This document shows, in pieces, positions 2,145-18,715 of a DNA stretch of 20,281 bases. The notes under the pieces are model-generated. The model saw nothing but the letters and a program-made list of their open reading frames with translations. It searched no databases and was not told where the DNA came from. Numbering within the stretch: the stretch's first letter is position 1; the number at the start of each line of letters is the position of its first letter. The stretch is taken from IMG/VR virus record IMGVR_UViG_3300017708_002051, positions 1-20,281 of that record; one strand, given 5' to 3'. This DNA is from a virus. The position numbers and the translations under genes are program-made.

Positions 2145-5100
2145 ATGGAAAAGATAGCACTTTTACCTGGTGGATTTAAACCACCTCATGCAGGTCATTA
2201 TAATATGGCTAAATGGCTTATATCAAATACTGATGCAGACACTGTTATAGTTAAAGTTGGAGTAAAAATAAGAGATGGTATTAATCGTGAAGTAGCCCTT
2301 AAATTATGGGATCTTTATAGATCTACAGATCCTAACCCAATATCTAAAAAAATAGCTATTTTAGCTTCAAATTCAAATTCTCCAGTACAAGATGTATATG
2401 ATTTTATAGAAAAAGAAGCACCTGAAGGATCTAAAATTTATTTAGGAATGGGAGAAAAAGATGTAAATGATAAACGTTTTAATAATATAGGAAAATTTGC
2501 AGAACCTAAAGGAATTAATTTTGAAATTAAATTAGTACCTCCACAAACAGGAGGTATATCAGGTACTGAAATGAGAAATTTTGTAAAAATTAAAGATAAA
2601 GATAATTTTTTAAAATATATTCCTGATCATTTATCAAAATCAAATAAAGATAAAGCTTGGGGTATAGTAACAGGTTTAGAAGAAGATTTATATAATCCAG
2701 AAGATAAAGTTTTAGATTATATGAGAAGTAGTGAATTTAAAGCAGGAATGCCTGATGGTCCTAAGGATGATAAAACTTCTCCTGTTATAAAATATCAAAG
2801 AGGAGGAATGTATAATGCAGCTTCAGGACAAGGAGGAGCAGGAACGATGTATGAAAATAAATATTATTTAAGTAATAGTAATATTCAAGGACAAGGAGCA
2901 TTTGCTCAAGAAAATTATCCTGAAGGAACTGTAATAGATAAATTACATGATATCTTAGGACAAGGACAATATAATTTTTATGAATTAGGAAAAATGTATA
3001 ACCATTCAGAAACTCCTAATTGTAAAAATATAATGAAAAATAATACTCGATATTTAGTAACAATTCAACCTGTAAAACAAGGAGAAGAACTTACAGCAGA
3101 TTATAGACTACAACCTGATTTAGAACAACCTGAACATTTTTTAAATGAATTGGATAAATCAGATTTAAAATCAATAGATACTTATGCAGATAAACAATTG
3201 GATCCTTTTGATGTAGTATTAACTGATAAACATTTTTTTAATAGATTAAATGATCCTCGTAATGATAAAGAAATATCAAATGCTGAATTAATAGGGTTTT
3301 TTAAACGTTTAGCTAAAAAGAAAAAAGAATTATTTAATTTTTTAACTAAATATAAAGAAATAGTAGCATCAGATATTAGAACAAATATTAATATACCTTT
3401 TTTAAAACAAGCAGATAAAATAATTGCTAAAACAATTTTAAGAAAAAAAGATTTTCAAACATCTAATCCTCAATTATCATTAGAAAGAGATTTATCAGAT
3501 AAAGAAGAAAAAATAGCACAAGAATTACCAGATAAAGAATTTAAAAAACGTTATGGTAAGGATTGGAAGTCAGTTAAAATAGCTACAGCAACTAAAATGG
3601 CTAAAAATGAGGGTGATACTTACGAAAAAATGGCTGCCAAAGGTAAGAAAAAAGGCAATCTAAAACAAGGCACTGTAAGAAAAAGACTTAAAATTAAAGA
3701 CGGAGAAAAAATTCCTTTATCTAAAATAACTAAAGCTATTTCAAAGATAAAGAAAATGAAAAATCCAAGTGAAAAAAATAAAAAATATCTTAAAGCCCTA
3801 AATTTAGCTAAAACATTAAAAACAACTACTCATAAAGAAAACATCAATGAAGCAGATCCTAAAAAAGGAACAGGTAAAAAACCAAAAGGATCAGGAAGAA
3901 GATTATACACAGACGAAAACCCAAAAGACACAGTTAAAGTTAAATTCTCAACTAGACAAGATATAGTAGACACTTTAAATAAAGCTTCATTTAAAAGTAA
4001 ATCTCATAAACGTCAATCCCAAGTTATAAATTTAATTCACCAAAGAGTTAGAGCAGCATTAGGTAGAGCAAAAGATCCAGCTGTTAAAAAACGTTTAAAA
4101 TCTGCTTTTGAATATATTAAAAAACGTAAAGAAGCATCTAAGAAAAAAACACAACGAATGAAAAATGAAAATGCATTCTCAAAAGATTGGTGGTCAAATA
4201 TAATAAATGAACATTTATTAGTAGAAGGGGGAGCAGCAGGACATATGGCTCATCCTTTTGATTTACAAAATGTAAAATCAGGTAGAGATCTTAAAAACAT
4301 ATTTACAGCAGCTGCAACTTCTCTAAATACAAATCCAGGATCTGTAAAAATAGATGGTGTTAATGCATCAATTCGTTTAATTACTTTAGACGGAGTAAAA
4401 CAATTTGTAATGGATAGAGGTTCTAAAAAAGAACTTGACATTAAAGGTATTACAAAAGATGACTTATCAAGTCGATTTGGTGAAGGTCATGGAATGATTA
4501 AAATAGGAGGAGAAGTACTAGATATGTTTAATACAGCATTGCCCCAAATAGAAAATGATCTTAAAGCTTTAGGTGCTTGGGAAGACCCAAATATATTATT
4601 TAATATGGAATATGTTAGTGGTAAAACTAATGTACAAGATTATGGTTCTAATTTTATAGCAATTCATGGTTTAAATAGGATAGAAAGTAAAGAAGTACAA
4701 GGTAAAAGAAAAATGTTAACTAAAAGAATATCATCAGAAATATCTTACAATAAATCAGCTTTACAATCAATGTTAGATAATTTATCTCCAACAGCTAAAA
4801 AACAAGGATTTAAAGTTTATGGTTCTGTCCCTACAGAAATGAAGAAAAAACCTAATTTTAATTCTGCACTTTCTCAAAATTATTCTGTAGAATTTACTGA
4901 AGAAGTAAAAACTCAACCTTTAAGTAAATGGCTAGATGAAGTAAGCGCAATTCCTAAGGATGAGTTTATATTTATAACAAGAGATAATATTAAGAAAAAA
5001 GTAGGAGCTGTTTCTAAACAGGTTTATCAACTAATTTTAAATAGAGAAAATGTTGATGATTTGTTTAATGATAGTGATAAGAAAAAAGCCATTGATGGGT

Positions 5101-5276
5101 TTGTAACTTATCTAGCAACTGAAAAATTAGGAGATGAAGTACTTAAAGTATTAGATTCACCAATGGGTTCAGTTGAAGATCATGAAGGAGTAGTAATTAG
5201 AGATGAAAAAATAGCGAGTGTACCCTTTAAAATAACGGGTAAATTTATATTAGGAGGATTAATATCAGATTTTTAA
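2145..5276 (+). CDS. Mosaic polyprotein: HxGH nucleotidyltransferase, SET domain, basic modules, ligase-like domain
   Basis: This is a 1043-aa multidomain protein. Residues 1-170 form an HxGH nucleotidyltransferase fold of the NMN adenylyltransferase/cytidylyltransferase superfamily, with GGFKPPHAGH at 9-18 and ISGTEMR at 138-144. Residues 236-330 form a SET domain, with GQGAFA, NHSETPNC at 286-293 and GEELTADY at 313-320. Residues 363-447 (starting HFFNRLNDPRN) and 465-560 (RYGKDW, then TVRKRLKIKDGEKIPLS) are lysine-rich modules of unknown function that I recall from marine phages. Residues 570-694 are extremely basic. Residues 695-1043 carry ligase-like motifs: K735-I-D-G, Glu822-Tyr, EGVVIR at 1014-1019, and lysines 1029 and 1033. 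INE/A at 567-570 and LVE/G at 692-695 fit the T4 prohead protease cleavage rule at module borders. The ATG at 2145 was chosen over the TTG one codon upstream. Domain calls are good; function and processing are inferred. Confidence 0.8.
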   Translation: MEKIALLPGGFKPPHAGHYNMAKWLISNTDADTVIVKVGVKIRDGINREVALKLWDLYRSTDPNPISKKIAILASNSNSPVQDVYDFIEKEAPEGSKIYLGMGEKDVNDKRFNNIGKFAEPKGINFEIKLVPPQTGGISGTEMRNFVKIKDKDNFLKYIPDHLSKSNKDKAWGIVTGLEEDLYNPEDKVLDYMRSSEFKAGMPDGPKDDKTSPVIKYQRGGMYNAASGQGGAGTMYENKYYLSNSNIQGQGAFAQENYPEGTVIDKLHDILGQGQYNFYELGKMYNHSETPNCKNIMKNNTRYLVTIQPVKQGEELTADYRLQPDLEQPEHFLNELDKSDLKSIDTYADKQLDPFDVVLTDKHFFNRLNDPRNDKEISNAELIGFFKRLAKKKKELFNFLTKYKEIVASDIRTNINIPFLKQADKIIAKTILRKKDFQTSNPQLSLERDLSDKEEKIAQELPDKEFKKRYGKDWKSVKIATATKMAKNEGDTYEKMAAKGKKKGNLKQGTVRKRLKIKDGEKIPLSKITKAISKIKKMKNPSEKNKKYLKALNLAKTLKTTTHKENINEADPKKGTGKKPKGSGRRLYTDENPKDTVKVKFSTRQDIVDTLNKASFKSKSHKRQSQVINLIHQRVRAALGRAKDPAVKKRLKSAFEYIKKRKEASKKKTQRMKNENAFSKDWWSNIINEHLLVEGGAAGHMAHPFDLQNVKSGRDLKNIFTAAATSLNTNPGSVKIDGVNASIRLITLDGVKQFVMDRGSKKELDIKGITKDDLSSRFGEGHGMIKIGGEVLDMFNTALPQIENDLKALGAWEDPNILFNMEYVSGKTNVQDYGSNFIAIHGLNRIESKEVQGKRKMLTKRISSEISYNKSALQSMLDNLSPTAKKQGFKVYGSVPTEMKKKPNFNSALSQNYSVEFTEEVKTQPLSKWLDEVSAIPKDEFIFITRDNIKKKVGAVSKQVYQLILNRENVDDLFNDSDKKKAIDGFVTYLATEKLGDEVLKVLDSPMGSVEDHEGVVIRDEKIASVPFKITGKFILGGLISDF

Positions 5277-6841
5277 TGAAGAAAAAAGACATAATAAAAT
5301 TAGTACAAGAAACAGTACAAGAAGTTAAATCAGACGCTTATGGTAGTGCTACTTTAACATCTCAAGGACAGTCTATTCATAGAGCTCCAGGAGTATGGGA
5401 ATTCAAACAACCAAAATTATTTGATCCAGACACTATTAATTTAGTTAGAGATATGTTATCTATGGCAGATGTACACCATAATGAACTTGTTGGAGGATAC
5501 GATGAAGTTTCTTCATATTTAGACAAAAGATCAGGTGGAACATTTATTAAATTTCCCCATTTTAATGGCCCTCAAGGTAGAGGAGCAATGTTTGGAAAAG
5601 AAACGGTAAACAAAATTAATCGTTCTAAAGCAGCAGCAAAAGCAGCAGCACTTAAAACATACACTCAATTTAAAACATACATAGAAGATTATGAAATATC
5701 AGATGCATCTCCAGCAGGTGTTTATGGTAATGTTTATTTATTTCTAATGTTTAATGATTTAGCAAAAGATTATACATCACCAAAAGGAGGAACACAATCA
5801 TCTCAATTTGAAGAAAATGAAAAGCTTAATGAACACAACCAACGTGCTAAAGAATTAGCAGATAGTTATTCAATTAAAGAATTGCAAAATCGTTTAGATC
5901 AAATTTATAGAGAAATGGAACAAGAAGCTGAACCAGAAGGGGGACCTATAGCAGACATGTATGCAGATGAAATACAATCATATGAAGACGCTATTAATAT
6001 GGCTAAAAGAAATTCAGTTAAACCATTAACTTATGGTCAAGCAACAGGACAAGAACCATTACCTGATGGAAGTTATTTAGATAAAGATGGAAATAAAACA
6101 ACAGTATCTCCAAATAAAGACACATTTACTAAATCTTCAAAATTTGATAAATTAAAAGAACAAACACCACCTGCAAAAGGAGGTGAAACTCCTGCAAAAG
6201 GAGGATCAGCACCCCCAATGGATGCTGATGCAAGAGCTGAAAAAAAAGAATTAGAAAATTTAGAAAAAGAAAAATTTAATATAAGAATAAAATATTTAAA
6301 TAGAAAAAAAGCAAAAGCATCGGCACAAGCTGCAAAACAATCAAGCGGTGCTATTAAAAATATCCAAAAACAAGTAGACCAATTAATACAACAAAGAAGC
6401 AAAGTGGGAACAACACCCCCAGCTTCACCACAAAAAGAAAACAAAATTATGAAAACAAACAAATTATTATCTGATTACTTAAAAGAAAATAAAAGTAACA
6501 ATTTAAAATCAAATTTAAGTGAGCATAAAAAATTAGCAAGAAGACAAATGTTAATGGAAGGTGCTTTAAAACAATTTTTTGAATACTTTGATGAAGGTCA
6601 AACAGACGAAGAAGTAGTTCAACTTTATGCTCAAAAAGGAGTTAATGTTCCAGAAACTTTTGTAAAAAAAGCAAGAAGTCAATATGAAAATCTTACAAAG
6701 TTAAAAATGGAATTAGAAATGAGTGAAAAAGAATTTAAAAACTCAGCTTCTAATATTGTAAATAATCCAGTAACAGGAGAAGCAGATATGTTAGATGATG
6801 ATAAACAATTAGCATCTGCGATCACTTCAGAAGAAATATAA
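5276..6841 (+). CDS. Phage mosaic protein with conserved C-terminal module, probable capsid-associated precursor
   Basis: This 521-aa protein starts with the A of the upstream stop codon (TAATG), so the two genes are probably translationally coupled. Its N-terminus, MKKKDIIKLVQETVQEV, is a short amphipathic basic helix like those on several other proteins here. Residues up to about 170 are Ala/Lys-rich and may fold. Residues 270-390 are low complexity, with a PAKGG repeat and charged coiled-coil-like stretches. From Met392 the sequence looks like a separate module: another leader-like segment, an exact LME/G match to the gp21 cleavage rule at 426-429, then a compact domain with FDEGQTDEEVVQLYAQKGV and an NIVNNPVTGEAD tail that I recall from other marine phages. 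No enzyme motif is visible. A virion or prohead-core role is inferred from context. Confidence 0.6.
   Translation: MKKKDIIKLVQETVQEVKSDAYGSATLTSQGQSIHRAPGVWEFKQPKLFDPDTINLVRDMLSMADVHHNELVGGYDEVSSYLDKRSGGTFIKFPHFNGPQGRGAMFGKETVNKINRSKAAAKAAALKTYTQFKTYIEDYEISDASPAGVYGNVYLFLMFNDLAKDYTSPKGGTQSSQFEENEKLNEHNQRAKELADSYSIKELQNRLDQIYREMEQEAEPEGGPIADMYADEIQSYEDAINMAKRNSVKPLTYGQATGQEPLPDGSYLDKDGNKTTVSPNKDTFTKSSKFDKLKEQTPPAKGGETPAKGGSAPPMDADARAEKKELENLEKEKFNIRIKYLNRKKAKASAQAAKQSSGAIKNIQKQVDQLIQQRSKVGTTPPASPQKENKIMKTNKLLSDYLKENKSNNLKSNLSEHKKLARRQMLMEGALKQFFEYFDEGQTDEEVVQLYAQKGVNVPETFVKKARSQYENLTKLKMELEMSEKEFKNSASNIVNNPVTGEADMLDDDKQLASAITSEEI
6170..6204 (+). repeat. Short in-frame tandem repeat, 21-base period
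   Basis: The 14-mer CCTGCAAAAGGAGG occurs exactly at 6170-6183 and again at 6191-6204, giving a seven-codon period that encodes the PAKGG repeats in the linker of the 521-aa protein. This looks like slippage-type expansion of a flexible linker, not a regulatory element. Confidence 0.75.
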
Positions 6842-13284: not shown

Positions 13285-14877
13285 ATGGCACAACCAAACA
13301 TTAAACAAGCAATAAAGCAAGAGTATATTAAATGTGCTAAGGATCCTGTATACTTTATGAAAAAATATTGTTTTATTCAACACCCAACAAGAGGTCGTGT
13401 TCAATTTAATCTTTATCCCTTTCAAGAAGCTACATTAAAATTACTACAAAAACATGATAGAAGTATTATTCTTAAGTCTCGTCAGTTAGGTATTTCTACT
13501 TTATCCGCAGGTATTTCATTATGGATGATGATATTTCAAAAAGATAAATCTATACTTGTAGTTGCAACAAAACAAGACACAGCAAAAAACTTAGTAACAA
13601 AGGTAAAATTTATGTATGATGAATTACCTTCATGGTTACAAATTGGGTTTACAGAAAACAATAAATTAGCATTACGTCTAAAAAATGGTTCTCAAATTAA
13701 AGCAGTATCTGCAGCAAGTGATGCTGGTAGATCAGAAGCAATTTCTTTATTGATTATTGATGAGGCTGCCTTTATTGAAACAAACAAAATAGATGAAATT
13801 TGGGGTTCGTCACAACAAACATTATCAACGGGGGGTAGAGCAATCGTTTTATCTACACCAAATGGAACAGGTAATTTCTTTCATAAAATGTGGACTAAAG
13901 CAGAAGAAGGAACTAACGGATTTATCCCTATTAAATTACACTGGTCAGTACACCCAGAAAGAAACCAAGCATGGAGAGATAAACAAGATGATGAATTAGG
14001 TTTAAGAATGGCTGCACAAGAATGTGATTGTGATTTTACAACATCAGGACACACAGTTTTTGAAAATGAACTTATGAAATTTATTGAAGAAACTAATATA
14101 TGTGCTCCTTTAGAAAAAAGAGGTATAGAAGGAGGATTACACATTTGGGAATATCCAGATTATACAAGAAAATATATAATAACAGCCGATGTAGCTAGAG
14201 GTGATAGTAAAGATTATTCTGCTTTTCATATTATTGATATAGAAGAATCTAAACAAATTGGTGAATTTAAAGGTCAAATTGGTACTAAAGAATTTGGTCA
14301 TATGTTAGTTGCAATGGCAACTGAATATAATAATGCTTTATTAGTAATTGAAAATGCTAATATAGGATGGAATACTATTCAAGTAGTAATAGATAAAGGT
14401 TATAATAATTTGTATTATTCACCTAAAGGGGAAGCAGCAACAAATGCAGATGCATTTTTAGCTAAAGGATATGATATAACAGACACAACTAAAATGGTTC
14501 CTGGTTTTACAATGTCAATGAAAACAAGACCATTAGTAATAGGAAAATTAGATGCATACTTAAAAGATAAAGCAATTACTATTCAAGGAAAAAGAACATT
14601 AGAAGAAATGAAAACTTTTATATGGTTAAATGGAAAACCAGAAGCCCAAATCGGATATAATGATGATTTAGTAATGTCTTTAGCAACAGCATGTTATGTA
14701 AGAGACACAGCACTTAAATTTGCCCAACAAGGATTAGATATGACAAGAGCTACAGTATCAAATTGGCAACGAGAAACTACTCCAGGTATTTATACAGGAG
14801 GTATGGGTAAGAAAAACACGGGTTGGACACAAGATTTAGGAGAACAAGGAGAACAGGATTTAACTTGGCTTCTTTAA
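13285..14877 (+). CDS. terL: Terminase large subunit, T4 gp17-like
   Basis: This 530-aa protein has the two-domain packaging motor layout. The N-terminal ATPase has a Walker A variant KSRQLGIST at residues 64-72 (compare the SRQLGKT type of gp17) and Walker B LLIIDEAA with Asp159 and Glu160. A coupling motif, VLSTPNG, follows. The C-terminal RNase H-like nuclease shows Asp302 in ADVARGDSKDYSAF, Glu356 in VIENANIGW and an Asp460-Asp461 pair in GYNDDLVMSLA. The enzyme docks on the portal vertex, cuts concatemeric DNA and drives it into the prohead. It lies immediately upstream of the portal gene. No small terminase subunit is recognised in the window. The ATG at 13285 has an AT-rich leader without a Shine-Dalgarno sequence. 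All catalytic residues appear intact. Confidence 0.95.
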   Translation: MAQPNIKQAIKQEYIKCAKDPVYFMKKYCFIQHPTRGRVQFNLYPFQEATLKLLQKHDRSIILKSRQLGISTLSAGISLWMMIFQKDKSILVVATKQDTAKNLVTKVKFMYDELPSWLQIGFTENNKLALRLKNGSQIKAVSAASDAGRSEAISLLIIDEAAFIETNKIDEIWGSSQQTLSTGGRAIVLSTPNGTGNFFHKMWTKAEEGTNGFIPIKLHWSVHPERNQAWRDKQDDELGLRMAAQECDCDFTTSGHTVFENELMKFIEETNICAPLEKRGIEGGLHIWEYPDYTRKYIITADVARGDSKDYSAFHIIDIEESKQIGEFKGQIGTKEFGHMLVAMATEYNNALLVIENANIGWNTIQVVIDKGYNNLYYSPKGEAATNADAFLAKGYDITDTTKMVPGFTMSMKTRPLVIGKLDAYLKDKAITIQGKRTLEEMKTFIWLNGKPEAQIGYNDDLVMSLATACYVRDTALKFAQQGLDMTRATVSNWQRETTPGIYTGGMGKKNTGWTQDLGEQGEQDLTWLL

Positions 14878-14898
14878 TATGTATTAAAAAACAACAAG

Positions 14899-16746
14899 AT
14901 GGCAGACATTAGTATTTTCACAAGATTAAAACGGTTATTTTCAAATGACGTTATTATTCGTAACGTTGGAGGAAAACAACTTAAAATCATGGACACAGGT
15001 AGGATCCAAAAATATGGAAACCTAGCTACAAATTCACTTTACGATAGATTTACTCGTATGCATAAACCTGTAGGATCTTCCCTACAATATAACCCTACGT
15101 TAAATTATCAGTCAATGCGACTACAGCTTTATAGTGATTATGAAGCTATGGATCATGATCCTATTATTGCATCAGCTTTAGATATTATAAGTGATGAAAC
15201 AACTACAAGAAACGAATATGGGGATGTTTTAAAAGTAAATTCTTCAGATGAAAATGTTAGAAAAGTATTACATAATTTATTTTATGATGTTTTAAATATA
15301 GAATTTAATTTAGCTACATGGGTTAGAAATATGTGTAAATATGGAGACTTTTATTTAAAAATGGAAGTATCTGAAAAATTTGGTGTTTATAATGTTATAC
15401 CTTTATCTGTATATGAAGTAGTAAGAGAAGAAGGAACAGATCCCGACAACCCATCTTATACTCGTTTTACAATGGATCCAAATGGTTTAGCTAGTGGAGC
15501 AACTAACACAATTAGACGAGATCAATTTACATTAGAAAATTATGAAGTTGCCCATTTTAGATTACTTACAGATTCTAATTATCTTCCTTATGGTAGATCT
15601 TATTTAGAACCATCTCGTAAAGTATTTAAACAATTAATGTTAATGGAAGATGCTATGTTAATTCATAGAATTATGAGAGCACCTGAAAAAAGAATATTTT
15701 ATGTAAATGTAGGATCTATTGAATCTTCACAGATAGAAACATTCATGAAACAAACCATGAATAAAATGAAAAAAACACCTCATATAGATCAATCTACTGG
15801 TGATTATAATATGAAATTTAATGTTCAAAACATGACAGAAGATTTCTATATACCTGTTAGAAATAATGATACATCAACTCGTATTGATACTACTAAAGGT
15901 TTAGATTATGATGGTACAACAGACATCGAGTATTTAAAAAATAAAATGATGGCTGCTTTAAAAATTCCTAAACCATTTTTAGGTTATGAGGAAGGAGTAG
16001 AAGGAAAATCAACATTAGCAGGTATGGATATTCGTTTTGCTCGTACAGTTGAACGTGTTCAAAGAATTATAGAATCAGAATTAACTAAAATTGCATTAGT
16101 ACATTTATATTCACAAGGTTTTAGTGATGAAAAGTTAATCGATTTTTCACTACAATTAACTACACCATCAATTATTTATGAACAAGAAAAAGTTGAATTA
16201 TATACTTCAAAAACAGCAGTAGCTCAACAAATGTTAGATGGTAAAATAATGAGTAAAGATTGGGTTTATGAAAATGTATTTGGATTATCACCTGATCAAT
16301 ATAACCAACAAAAAGAAGAAATGCTTGAGGATGCAATGGATAAATTTAGATTAGCACAACTTGAGAATGAAGGAAATGACCCACAAGAATCAGGTGTTTC
16401 TTATGGTACTCCACATGATTTAGCTTCATTATATGGTAATAAAAGAGATAAATCAGTAGGACCAGCCCAAGTCCCAACAGGATATGATGAAAAAGATCCT
16501 GGTCGTCCAATAGAAAGACCTCAAAGATATCAATCTGATAAAAGTAATTTTAGTAGAGACCCATTAGGAAAAACAGGATTATCACCAGATAGAGTAGAAA
16601 AATTATCAGATGGAAATAAAGTTTCTACACTTGAAGTAGCAAATATAAAAAAATCCCTTCAAAAAATAAAAAACAAAAAACAAATTTTAAAAGAAGAAAA
16701 TAATAAAGGGATGTTATCTGAAAAAAATATTAAGCCTCAAGAATAG
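14899..16746 (+). CDS. 20: Portal vertex protein, T4 gp20-like
   Basis: This 615-aa protein is within the usual range for T4-type portals. The most telling block is near residues 250-272 (LMLMEDAMLIHRIMRAPEKR, then FYVNVG), the conserved clip and wing signature of gp20. It is preceded by YGRSYLEPSRKVFKQ and followed by a KTPHIDQSTGDYN segment. The last roughly 130 residues are hydrophilic and variable, as in marine relatives. The portal forms the dodecameric ring at one capsid vertex, nucleates prohead assembly and is the docking site for terminase and later the neck. It sits 21 bases after the terminase gene. T4 has sheath and tube genes 18 and 19 between these two, and they are absent here. 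The identification is secure. Confidence 0.94.
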   Translation: MADISIFTRLKRLFSNDVIIRNVGGKQLKIMDTGRIQKYGNLATNSLYDRFTRMHKPVGSSLQYNPTLNYQSMRLQLYSDYEAMDHDPIIASALDIISDETTTRNEYGDVLKVNSSDENVRKVLHNLFYDVLNIEFNLATWVRNMCKYGDFYLKMEVSEKFGVYNVIPLSVYEVVREEGTDPDNPSYTRFTMDPNGLASGATNTIRRDQFTLENYEVAHFRLLTDSNYLPYGRSYLEPSRKVFKQLMLMEDAMLIHRIMRAPEKRIFYVNVGSIESSQIETFMKQTMNKMKKTPHIDQSTGDYNMKFNVQNMTEDFYIPVRNNDTSTRIDTTKGLDYDGTTDIEYLKNKMMAALKIPKPFLGYEEGVEGKSTLAGMDIRFARTVERVQRIIESELTKIALVHLYSQGFSDEKLIDFSLQLTTPSIIYEQEKVELYTSKTAVAQQMLDGKIMSKDWVYENVFGLSPDQYNQQKEEMLEDAMDKFRLAQLENEGNDPQESGVSYGTPHDLASLYGNKRDKSVGPAQVPTGYDEKDPGRPIERPQRYQSDKSNFSRDPLGKTGLSPDRVEKLSDGNKVSTLEVANIKKSLQKIKNKKQILKEENNKGMLSEKNIKPQE

Positions 16747-16784: not shown

Positions 16785-17630
16785 ATGAAAGTAAAACATT
16801 CTAAGTACAAGAATACTGGAATACTATTTGAGCTTTTAACTAGGCAGTTAACCTCTGATACTATTGCAGGAAACCAACCAAAATCCCTGTCTTTTTTAAA
16901 AAAACACTTTAATAAAAAAACAGAATTATTAAAAGAGTATAAAATATATCATACTTTAGCTACTCAAAAATATAATAAAGATAGTCAAGCTACAATGTTA
17001 ATTAATACATTGATAGAAGCACATAAAAAATTAAATAAAAGTCAGTTAAGAAGAGAAAAATATAATTTAATTAAAGAAATTAAAGAAACTTATAATGTAA
17101 ATGATTTCTTTAAAGCTAAAATAACAGATTATAAAGTAATGGCATCTATTTTTAATTTATTAGAAAATAAAGAAGCTTCACCTTTATCTATAGTTAATTC
17201 TAAAACAACAATATTAGAACATATAACAGGAAAGCAATTGTCTAATAATAAAAAGAATGTTGTATTAGAAAATTTTAATAAACAAGACAGTGATACTAGA
17301 TTACTTACTTATAAAGTTTTACTTGAAAAATTTAATGACAAATATAGCGGTTTACAAGATAACCAAAAAACATTATTGAAAGAATATGTTAACAGCGTTA
17401 CTAACAGTCCTGCTCTTAAATCTTATATCAACCAAGAGATTAAAAAAGTTAAAAAAGATCTTACAAAATATTCTAAAAAAGTTGAAGATAAAGCGATAGA
17501 AATAAAATTACAAGAAACTAAAGATCTAATTAAACCATTATCTAAAAAATCATCAGTAAATGATGATAATGTTATTAACTTACTTAACTATTATGAATTA
17601 GTAAATGAGTTAAAAACAATCCATGGTTAG
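16785..17630 (+). CDS. Unknown helical protein between portal and prohead protease, probable prohead core component
   Basis: This 281-aa protein is Lys, Asn and Leu rich and looks almost wholly alpha-helical. It starts MKVKHSKYKNTGILFELLTR, a beginning I recall from proteins that follow the portal gene in marine T4-like phages. It contains long heptad-like stretches (around residues 90-110 and 215-250) and no cysteine, catalytic motif, signal peptide or membrane segment. In T4 the genes between 20 and 21 are the prohead core proteins gp67 and gp68, so position and composition argue for an internal scaffold or core role. Clear sequence similarity to those short T4 proteins is not visible, and this protein is much longer. 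It overlaps the next gene by eight bases. Confidence 0.6.
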   Translation: MKVKHSKYKNTGILFELLTRQLTSDTIAGNQPKSLSFLKKHFNKKTELLKEYKIYHTLATQKYNKDSQATMLINTLIEAHKKLNKSQLRREKYNLIKEIKETYNVNDFFKAKITDYKVMASIFNLLENKEASPLSIVNSKTTILEHITGKQLSNNKKNVVLENFNKQDSDTRLLTYKVLLEKFNDKYSGLQDNQKTLLKEYVNSVTNSPALKSYINQEIKKVKKDLTKYSKKVEDKAIEIKLQETKDLIKPLSKKSSVNDDNVINLLNYYELVNELKTIHG

Positions 17631-18093
17631 TCTTTTAGATATATATAATATAAAAGAATCTTCTTTTAGTGAATTAAAAAAAGATAGAAATCCCGCTAGA
17701 GGAAATAAAGGCAAAACAGATGCAAAAGATTATTATCTTGTAGATGAACCTGCAGATTCAGAAACAGGATCAGTAAAGTCTAAAGTAGTATATAAACGTT
17801 CTTTTGGTAAAATGGTAGCAGATTTAGAAGCAGAAGCAATTGATTTTAAAAAACTATCAGATGAAAACTCAGATGATATGGTATTATATAATTTATCTGA
17901 AGAATTAAAAGAATTATATAATAAATTTAGGACACATGTTAGAAAAAAGTATCCTGAAGAATATAAAAAAATACAAGAAAAAGAAATAGATGAAGCTAAC
18001 GTAACAGGAACAGGAGCTTCGTTTAGTGCAGGAAATAGTATGACTTATGCTACACCTTTTGCATTTAAAAAAAAACGTAAAAAAGAAAACTAA
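17623..18093 (+). CDS. Unknown small protein next to the prohead protease, probable capsid-targeted or core protein
   Basis: This 156-aa hydrophilic protein begins MVSLLDIYNIKESSFSELKK, then has a charged helical middle (KMVADLEAEAIDFKKLSDEN, then an ELKELYNKF stretch). An IDE/A match to the prohead protease cleavage rule lies at residues 122-125. After it come 32 residues, ANVTGTGASFSAGNSMTYAT followed by a Phe/Lys-rich end, a tail type I recall from capsid-linked marine phage proteins. The start lies eight bases inside the preceding gene, so translation is probably coupled. No enzyme motif is seen. Location between gp20 and gp21, plus a plausible gp21 site, suggests that it enters the prohead and is trimmed. 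The role is inference; the gene itself is secure. Confidence 0.6.
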   Translation: MVSLLDIYNIKESSFSELKKDRNPARGNKGKTDAKDYYLVDEPADSETGSVKSKVVYKRSFGKMVADLEAEAIDFKKLSDENSDDMVLYNLSEELKELYNKFRTHVRKKYPEEYKKIQEKEIDEANVTGTGASFSAGNSMTYATPFAFKKKRKKEN

Positions 18094-18094
18094 T

Positions 18095-18715
18095 ATGTTA
18101 TTACAAGAATATAGACCCTTTCAAGTAGATAAACAACTAGCAGAACAAGCTATTAAAGCAAATAAACCTTTAGTAGTATCTGGTATTTTACAACGAGCTG
18201 AAGCTAAAAACCAAAATGGTAGAGTTTACCCTACAGAAATTTTAAAAAGAGAAGTTAAAGAATATATGAAAGGTCCAGTAGCTGAAAATAGAGCAATGGG
18301 AGAATTAGATCATCCAGAATCATCAGTGATTAATTTACAAAATGTCTCTCACACAATTAAAAGATGTTGGTGGGAAGGAGATGATGTAATGGGTGATGTA
18401 GAAATATTAAGTACACCTGCAGGAAATATATTAAAAGCATTATTTGCAGCTGGTATTACAGTTGGTATTTCATCTCGTGGTATGGGTTCAGTAAAAGAAA
18501 ACATGATGGAAGGTACAGTTGAAGTACAAGATGATTTTGAATTATTATGTTGGGATTTTGTTTCAACACCATCTACACATGGGGCATTTATGGCACCTAA
18601 AACTAATGTAAGTCTTAATGAAATTAAAAATAAGTTACCTGAATATAAATACACCAATGTAAATAATATTGTGCGTGATATCTTATGTGACAATACAGGT
18701 GTTTGTAGATTATAA
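18095..18715 (+). CDS. 21: Prohead core maturation protease, T4 gp21-like
   Basis: This 206-aa serine protease is of the herpesvirus-assemblin-like fold used by T4 gp21. VSGILQRAEAKNQNGRVYP near residues 29-47 is the usual N-terminal signature. ELDHPE at 70-75 supplies the catalytic His73, and VGISSRG at 123-129 supplies the nucleophile (Ser126 or Ser127). DFVSTPSTHGAFM closes the conserved core. The enzyme sits inside the prohead and cleaves scaffold, core and internal proteins, classically after (I/L)-x-E, once assembly is complete. An ATG at 18047 in the same frame would add 16 residues and overlap the upstream gene by 47 bases. The ATG at 18095, just after the previous stop, gives an N-terminus (MLLQEYRPFQVD) that fits the family. 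This protease is the key partner for the proposed polyprotein sites. Confidence 0.92.
   Translation: MLLQEYRPFQVDKQLAEQAIKANKPLVVSGILQRAEAKNQNGRVYPTEILKREVKEYMKGPVAENRAMGELDHPESSVINLQNVSHTIKRCWWEGDDVMGDVEILSTPAGNILKALFAAGITVGISSRGMGSVKENMMEGTVEVQDDFELLCWDFVSTPSTHGAFMAPKTNVSLNEIKNKLPEYKYTNVNNIVRDILCDNTGVCRL

Follow-up and report, generated by a model that had tools for sequence, protein, structure and literature searches.

A gene in an uncultured marine T4-like phage probably encodes a modular enzyme polyprotein that is packaged in the head, cut by a gp21-type protease, and probably injected. The window analyzed here is the complete 20,281-base IMG/VR record IMGVR_UViG_3300017708_002051, and the coordinates of its features are shown in Table 1. 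The precursor joins several enzymes end to end. It would enter the prohead, probably through an internal FSKxWW...INE segment that resembles the capsid-targeting leader of T4. Inside the prohead, the gp21-type protease is proposed to cut after (I/L/V/M)-x-E at the joints. The predicted cuts are most secure after E569 and E694, and are probable also after E180, E237, E335, and E689. The expected products are three enzymes (NMNAT-like, SET methyltransferase, and RNA-ligase-like), a small module, and basic peptides. These pieces would be retained in the head alongside the DNA and would probably pass into the host upon infection, where they might support NAD metabolism, repair RNA, and modify host proteins. 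We infer cleavage, packaging, injection, and the enzyme activities for the phage of the window from the anatomy of the protein, a joint-specific motif, conservation at the protein level, a ligase-like fold, and leader-bearing relatives, as seen in sequences and models.

Table 1. Features of the polyprotein gene and of the head genes in the window. A slash marks a predicted cut.
Feature	Position	Strand	Remarks
Polyprotein gene	2145..5276	+	1043 aa; relatives found in viral contigs
Module 1, residues 1-180	2145..2684	+	HxGH nucleotidyltransferase, NMNAT/cytidylyltransferase-like
Likely cut LEE180/D181	2682..2687	+	Module border in relatives; moderate confidence
Likely cut MYE237/N238, ahead of SET domain	2853..2858	+	Moderate confidence
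Module 2, residues 238-335, SET domain	2856..3149	+	Pfam SET
Likely cut LNE335/L336	3147..3152	+	Moderate confidence
Module 3, residues 336-447	3150..3485	+	Small module with phage relatives
Lysine-rich segment, residues 448-569	3486..3851	+
Predicted cut INE569/A570	3849..3854	+	High confidence
Basic segment, residues 570-694	3852..4226	+
Conserved linker, residues 678-694, FSKDWWSNIINEHLLVE	4176..4226	+	Resembles capsid-targeting leader
Further likely cut INE689/H690	within 4176..4226 linker	+
Predicted cut LVE694/G695	4224..4229	+	High confidence
Last module, residues 695-1043, predicted RNA-ligase-like	4227..5273	+	KxDG = K735, D737, G738
gp17 terminase and gp20 portal genes	13285..16746	+	Annotated in matching loci
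gp21-type prohead protease gene, proposed processing enzyme	18095..18715	+	Peptidase_S77 E 8.6e-31; phrog_207 E 2.8e-53

The HxGH nucleotidyltransferase, SET, lysine-rich, and ligase-like parts that the earlier note had described in this gene are confirmed by the open reading frame and its translation, by profiles, and by the structure model. Viral contigs were scanned for relatives, which yielded 78 loci, and 56 non-redundant relatives were used for comparison. The polyproteins share their first module and end in either of two modules, and the middle modules are exchanged or reshuffled.

Module 1 contains the motif PPHAGH. It matches CTP_transf_like at residues 7–41 with E 0.0035 and 18 bits against the Pfam cut-off of 21, and its score against NCBIfam is far under the cut-off. 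The PDB profile search with this module gave only a marginal relative. The Pfam cut-off is narrowly passed by some relatives of the module, and 28 of 29 polyproteins match the family with E up to 0.01. Based on folds and motifs, the NMNAT-like enzyme could restore NAD. Position 180 is Glu in at least 90% of the 29 polyproteins and is at the edge of a low-confidence stretch in the model.

After MYE237, relatives continue with differing sequences. The Pfam SET match at residues 260–320 (E 1.7e-6) is over the cut-off, and the solved structure nearest to module 2 by sequence is the chlorella-virus vSET. Matches to the modules of other phages start at residues 336–339. The relatives of module 3 are from phages of Flavobacterium, Methylophilales, and Sinorhizobium. 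In PDB profile searches, no credible relative was found for module 3 or for the QFGVLYHF module. A further module start, GDTYEKMAAK, is seen at residue 489 after KNE488, which is a weak site in the window. The cargo modules of other polyprotein relatives include DUF192 (10/29), a polynucleotide-kinase-like family (4/29), and a plastocyanin-like domain (1/29). Modules of the polyprotein are also seen as separate genes (locus L008 from 5892 onward, L016 from 4319 onward, and L053 from 637 onward), and in L053 the polyprotein is divided between two open reading frames.

The predicted model of residues 695–1043 has a mean pLDDT of 88.8. In VIA-align, its best match is T4 Rnl1 (RNA ligase 1), with Z 9.1 over 176 residues. 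The 33 leading rows are all RNA or DNA ligases, and nearly only ligases follow T4 Rnl1. Foldseek alone gave a weak match (E 0.048), and the PDB profile search with this module gave no credible match. K735, D737, and G738 of the KxDG motif are invariant in relatives. The C-terminal module is thus predicted to adopt an RNA-ligase-like fold, from the KxDG motif and a single structural comparison of moderate Z. In other relatives the last module is instead DUF6267, likewise with a KxDG motif. DUF6267 is not named in any paper found. When the stand-alone ligase of L063 was compared with cultured phages by tblastn, zero matches were obtained. A ligase and a kinase/phosphatase constitute the tRNA-repair pair of T4.

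The strict motif (I/L)xE(A/G) is present in the 1043-aa protein only as INE/A (E569/A570) and LVE/G (E694/G695). As the earlier note had claimed, both sites are at module borders, and they are kept at joints in relatives with differing neighbors. Shuffled copies of the protein contain 1.2 such motifs on average, and the probability of 2 or more is 0.33. The two strict sites of the window, taken alone, are within chance. In the full-length model, sites 569, 689, and 694 are in low-confidence linkers (558–599 and 675–700). Because the two sites are not significant by themselves, the case was shifted to the relatives.

Among the relatives, the strict motif recurs at module starts. The joints were defined without regard to the motif, as positions downstream of which two proteins are similar and upstream of which they are unrelated. 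The ends of BLAST alignments, when used as joints, diluted the enrichment, and sharper in-register breakpoints were therefore adopted. Of 204 non-redundant left joints, 21% have [ILVM]xE[AGS] no more than 6 residues away, where 3.6% is expected (5.9-fold). [ILVM]xE followed by another residue is seen at 51%, against 15% expected, and the control motifs in which D, Q, or K replaces E are not enriched. When each joint is backed by at least 2 pairs (137 joints), [ILVM]xE is seen near 61% against 14% expected (4.4-fold). Any other residue in the place of Glu reaches at most 1.3-fold. The motif is not seen near 39% of the 137 joints. Because the joints have common ancestry, the P values are not to be taken literally, and the evidence lies in the contrast with the control motifs.

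Judging from these sequences, the demand for A or G after Glu is too strict and misses most of the predicted sites. E180, E237, E335, and E689 are likely further sites in the window. Pieces of about 569, 125, and 349 aa, released at two sites only, had been expected earlier. This is an undercount. Since most joints show (hydrophobic)-x-E with other residues, the piece of about 569 aa is probably cut again after the first three of these Glu residues.

Homologs had been proposed for alignment around the sites, and their comparison agrees with the expectation that the sites are kept while upstream residues vary. Ahead of the ligase module, in 68 distinct DNA contexts, P3 is I or L in 68/68, P1 is E in 65/68, and P1' is G in 68/68, while P2 and the residues upstream are variable. 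Three context groups ahead of the ligase are without Glu (LLC, LISD). In the groups of L136, L139, and L151, LLC or LISD replaces LxE before GGAAGHM, and these are natural losses of the site. The basic module ADPKKGTGKK, which follows E569, has E at P1 in 27/27 distinct contexts, with many unrelated upstream tails.

The motif itself could mark a site of DNA recombination or homing by which modules are shuffled, and the residues encoded there would be functionless. The breakpoints do cluster at the motif, and a SegE-type GIY-YIG gene is directly upstream of the polyprotein gene. However, the synonymous codons vary. L or I at P3 is encoded by six or more codons and Gly at P1' by all four, and the flanking bases differ. 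The conservation is therefore of the protein and not of a DNA recombination signal, which this examination of codons leaves unsupported, and we regard this explanation as most improbable.

It is also conceivable that the protein is a multifunctional cytoplasmic enzyme, fused for co-expression and never cut, in which (I/L)xE is merely a common linker sequence. In cyanophages, DUF6267 is without a leader and near uvsX and gp41, and short cytidylyltransferase genes, likewise leaderless, also sit among replication genes. The lack of an N-terminal leader in the polyprotein of the window fits such an enzyme as well. Against it, [ILVM]xE is specifically enriched at joints relative to all other residues, the sites persist when the neighboring modules change, and stand-alone relatives carry leaders. 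An uncut enzyme is thus considered unlikely.

According to the T4 record, IPII and IPIII start with MKTYQEFIAE/A. Targeting of IPIII involves its residues 4 and 7, and processing involves residues 8 and 10 (PMC9026906). One stand-alone protein related to the ligase module starts with MTFKQFLLE/GGVAGHM, in the same register as the T4 leader. Among NMNAT-like phage proteins, a T4-type leader is found at the N-terminus of 8 out of 14, whereas shuffling predicts 0.2%; the 14 are mutually related sequences hand-picked from the match list. The eight proteins are from P-SSM2, P-SSM7, Syn33, ACG-2014f, S-SCSM1, S-CREM2, S-SZBM1, and S-SM1. Leaders of NMNAT-like proteins in cyanophage records (L162–L168 and L171) include MKSFLQFLKE/A, MKNFSSFLTE/A, and MRFRQFIIE/A. 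Leaderless short NMNAT-like cytidylyltransferases also occur in cyanophages. Published mass spectrometry reports the NMNAT relatives of S-SCSM1, S-SZBM1, and S-CREM2 in virions, although carry-over is left possible in two of the three papers. How they get packaged was left open by the authors of those papers, and the T4-type leader is offered here as an explanation.

The N-terminus of the polyprotein, MEKIALLPGG, shows no T4-type targeting leader. The polyprotein is therefore not classified as a T4-type internal protein, though it may act like one. The sole match to the leader pattern in the 1043-aa protein is internal, at W683–E689 in the segment FSKDWWSNIINE. W682, W683, and E694 are invariant across 29 polyproteins, whose last enzymes are of two kinds, and in 68 of 84 contexts the FSKxWW linker is ahead of the last enzyme. 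Based on this invariance and position, an internal targeting segment is proposed, and the FSKxWW linker is our best guess for the head-targeting signal. An aromatic residue seven positions before the joint sites shows no general enrichment. Only the FSKxWW linker and N-terminal leaders show the leader-like register.

The gp21 homolog noticed earlier is recovered as a Peptidase_S77 open reading frame (18047–18715), and its probable start agrees with that given before. The order primase, polyprotein, gp17, gp20, and gp21 is kept in the relatives whose contigs extend far enough. T4 gp21 cuts after L/I-x-E (PMC9026906). The gp23 gene is absent from the record of the window, and sister contigs were therefore used. 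The gp23 of two sister contigs contains LLE/G, LLE/G, and LVNE/A within the first ~60 residues, and the classic gp21 substrate thereby bears sites of this kind. In the gp23 of sister contigs, the last propeptide site is followed by ANTTGTGANISTGNS (VNE/ANTTGTGANISTGNS). This stretch is similar to the C-terminus IDE/ANVTGTGASFSAGNS of the open reading frame before gp21 in the window (17623–18093), and another short open reading frame of L089 is also similar (loci L083, L084, and L089).

Cleavage by gp21 might instead be that of a scaffold-type core protein, the fragments of which exit the head so that no enzyme is delivered. Lysine-rich segments are present in the polyprotein, and the cutting of T4 core proteins yields several pieces, most of which leave the head (PMC9026906). 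Yet the polyprotein retains large conserved enzyme domains with their motifs, and strict sites are depleted inside them: 0.06 against 0.52 per ligase domain, and 0.04 against 0.24 per NMNAT domain. The order and make-up of the modules are also too variable for a core scaffold. A core protein is, on these grounds, quite unlikely. A head-packaged polyprotein matured by gp21, as the earlier note had suggested, is the best-supported reading, although the two sites of the window do not establish it by themselves. It is supported by the joint-specific motif, the gp23 motif of relatives, the gene order, the leader-bearing relatives, and the virion mass spectrometry of module 1 relatives.

The gp21 sites, capsid-targeting leaders, and polyvalent proteins are already known. 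T4 IPI–IPIII and Alt resemble the case of the window in the (I/L)-x-E cut, the encoded gp21, and the leaders on stand-alone relatives of two modules. They are single-domain or single-enzyme proteins with terminal propeptides, whereas the polyprotein has several enzymes, internal joint sites, and no N-terminal leader. The NMNATs in the virions of S-SCSM1, S-SZBM1, and S-CREM2 are relatives of module 1 in which a short leader is followed by a gp21-type site, but they are encoded by separate genes with the leader at the N-terminus, outside any larger polyprotein. Polyvalent proteins likewise combine disparate, exchangeable enzymatic domains with predicted delivery alongside the DNA (Iyer et al. 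2017, PMC5512222). Several biochemically disparate domains are also joined in one chain here, and the architecture changes among relatives. The release of polyvalent domains is proposed to be mainly by embedded metallopeptidases (PMC5512222), whereas the sites of the window fit a head protease that the phage encodes in a different gene. That paper makes no mention of SET domains. In phiKZ (gp175) and SPN3US (gp245), a gp21-family protease likewise cuts many packaged or ejected proteins, some of them multiply. In SPN3US, however, 13 of 14 mapped sites are for N-terminal propeptides with the motif A-x-E, and the head proteins of both phages undergo propeptide removal and not the release of several enzymes from one chain, as predicted for the window (PMC10052503, PMC9026906). 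In the literature, where few subscription journals were covered, no gp21-cut modular enzyme polyprotein was found, nor was virion proteomics of the immuto phages or phiM12.

Standard joints would allow phages to exchange modules with one another. On balance, it is rather plausible that in marine T4-like phages one signal carries an exchangeable train of enzymes into the prohead, where the head protease separates them, and that the cut sites double as the borders of exchange. This train would include RNA-repair enzymes, the ligase and in some relatives a kinase/phosphatase-like module. If true, a prohead protease can process a polyprotein into packaged enzymes, a new way for phages to carry proteins. 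It would explain how T4-family phages can load many different proteins by one signal, and would supply a sequence rule by which the injected effectors of marine phages could be found. With an injected ligase, RNA repair could start ahead of any phage gene expression.

Other arrangements of these modules are seen in cultured phages. Microcystis phage Mel-JY01 has a two-module form (L080, 4311–6230), composed of an NMNAT-like part, an IIAE/GG site, and a ligase-like part, ~2.6 kb ahead of the terminase gene. S-PM2 has DUF6267 and an NMNAT-like domain fused in the reverse order and without a leader (L159, 3947–5722). In Flavobacterium phage immuto_3-5A, a multidomain protein (L079, 5665–8388) contains an NMNAT-like domain, several (I/L)xE(A/G) motifs, and a zinc-protease-like part that resembles the 7650–8027 gene of the window. 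In the window, the gene next to the polyprotein gene (5276–6841) contains one strict gp21-type site, LME/G at residue 428, which separates a coiled or charged part from the C-terminal part.
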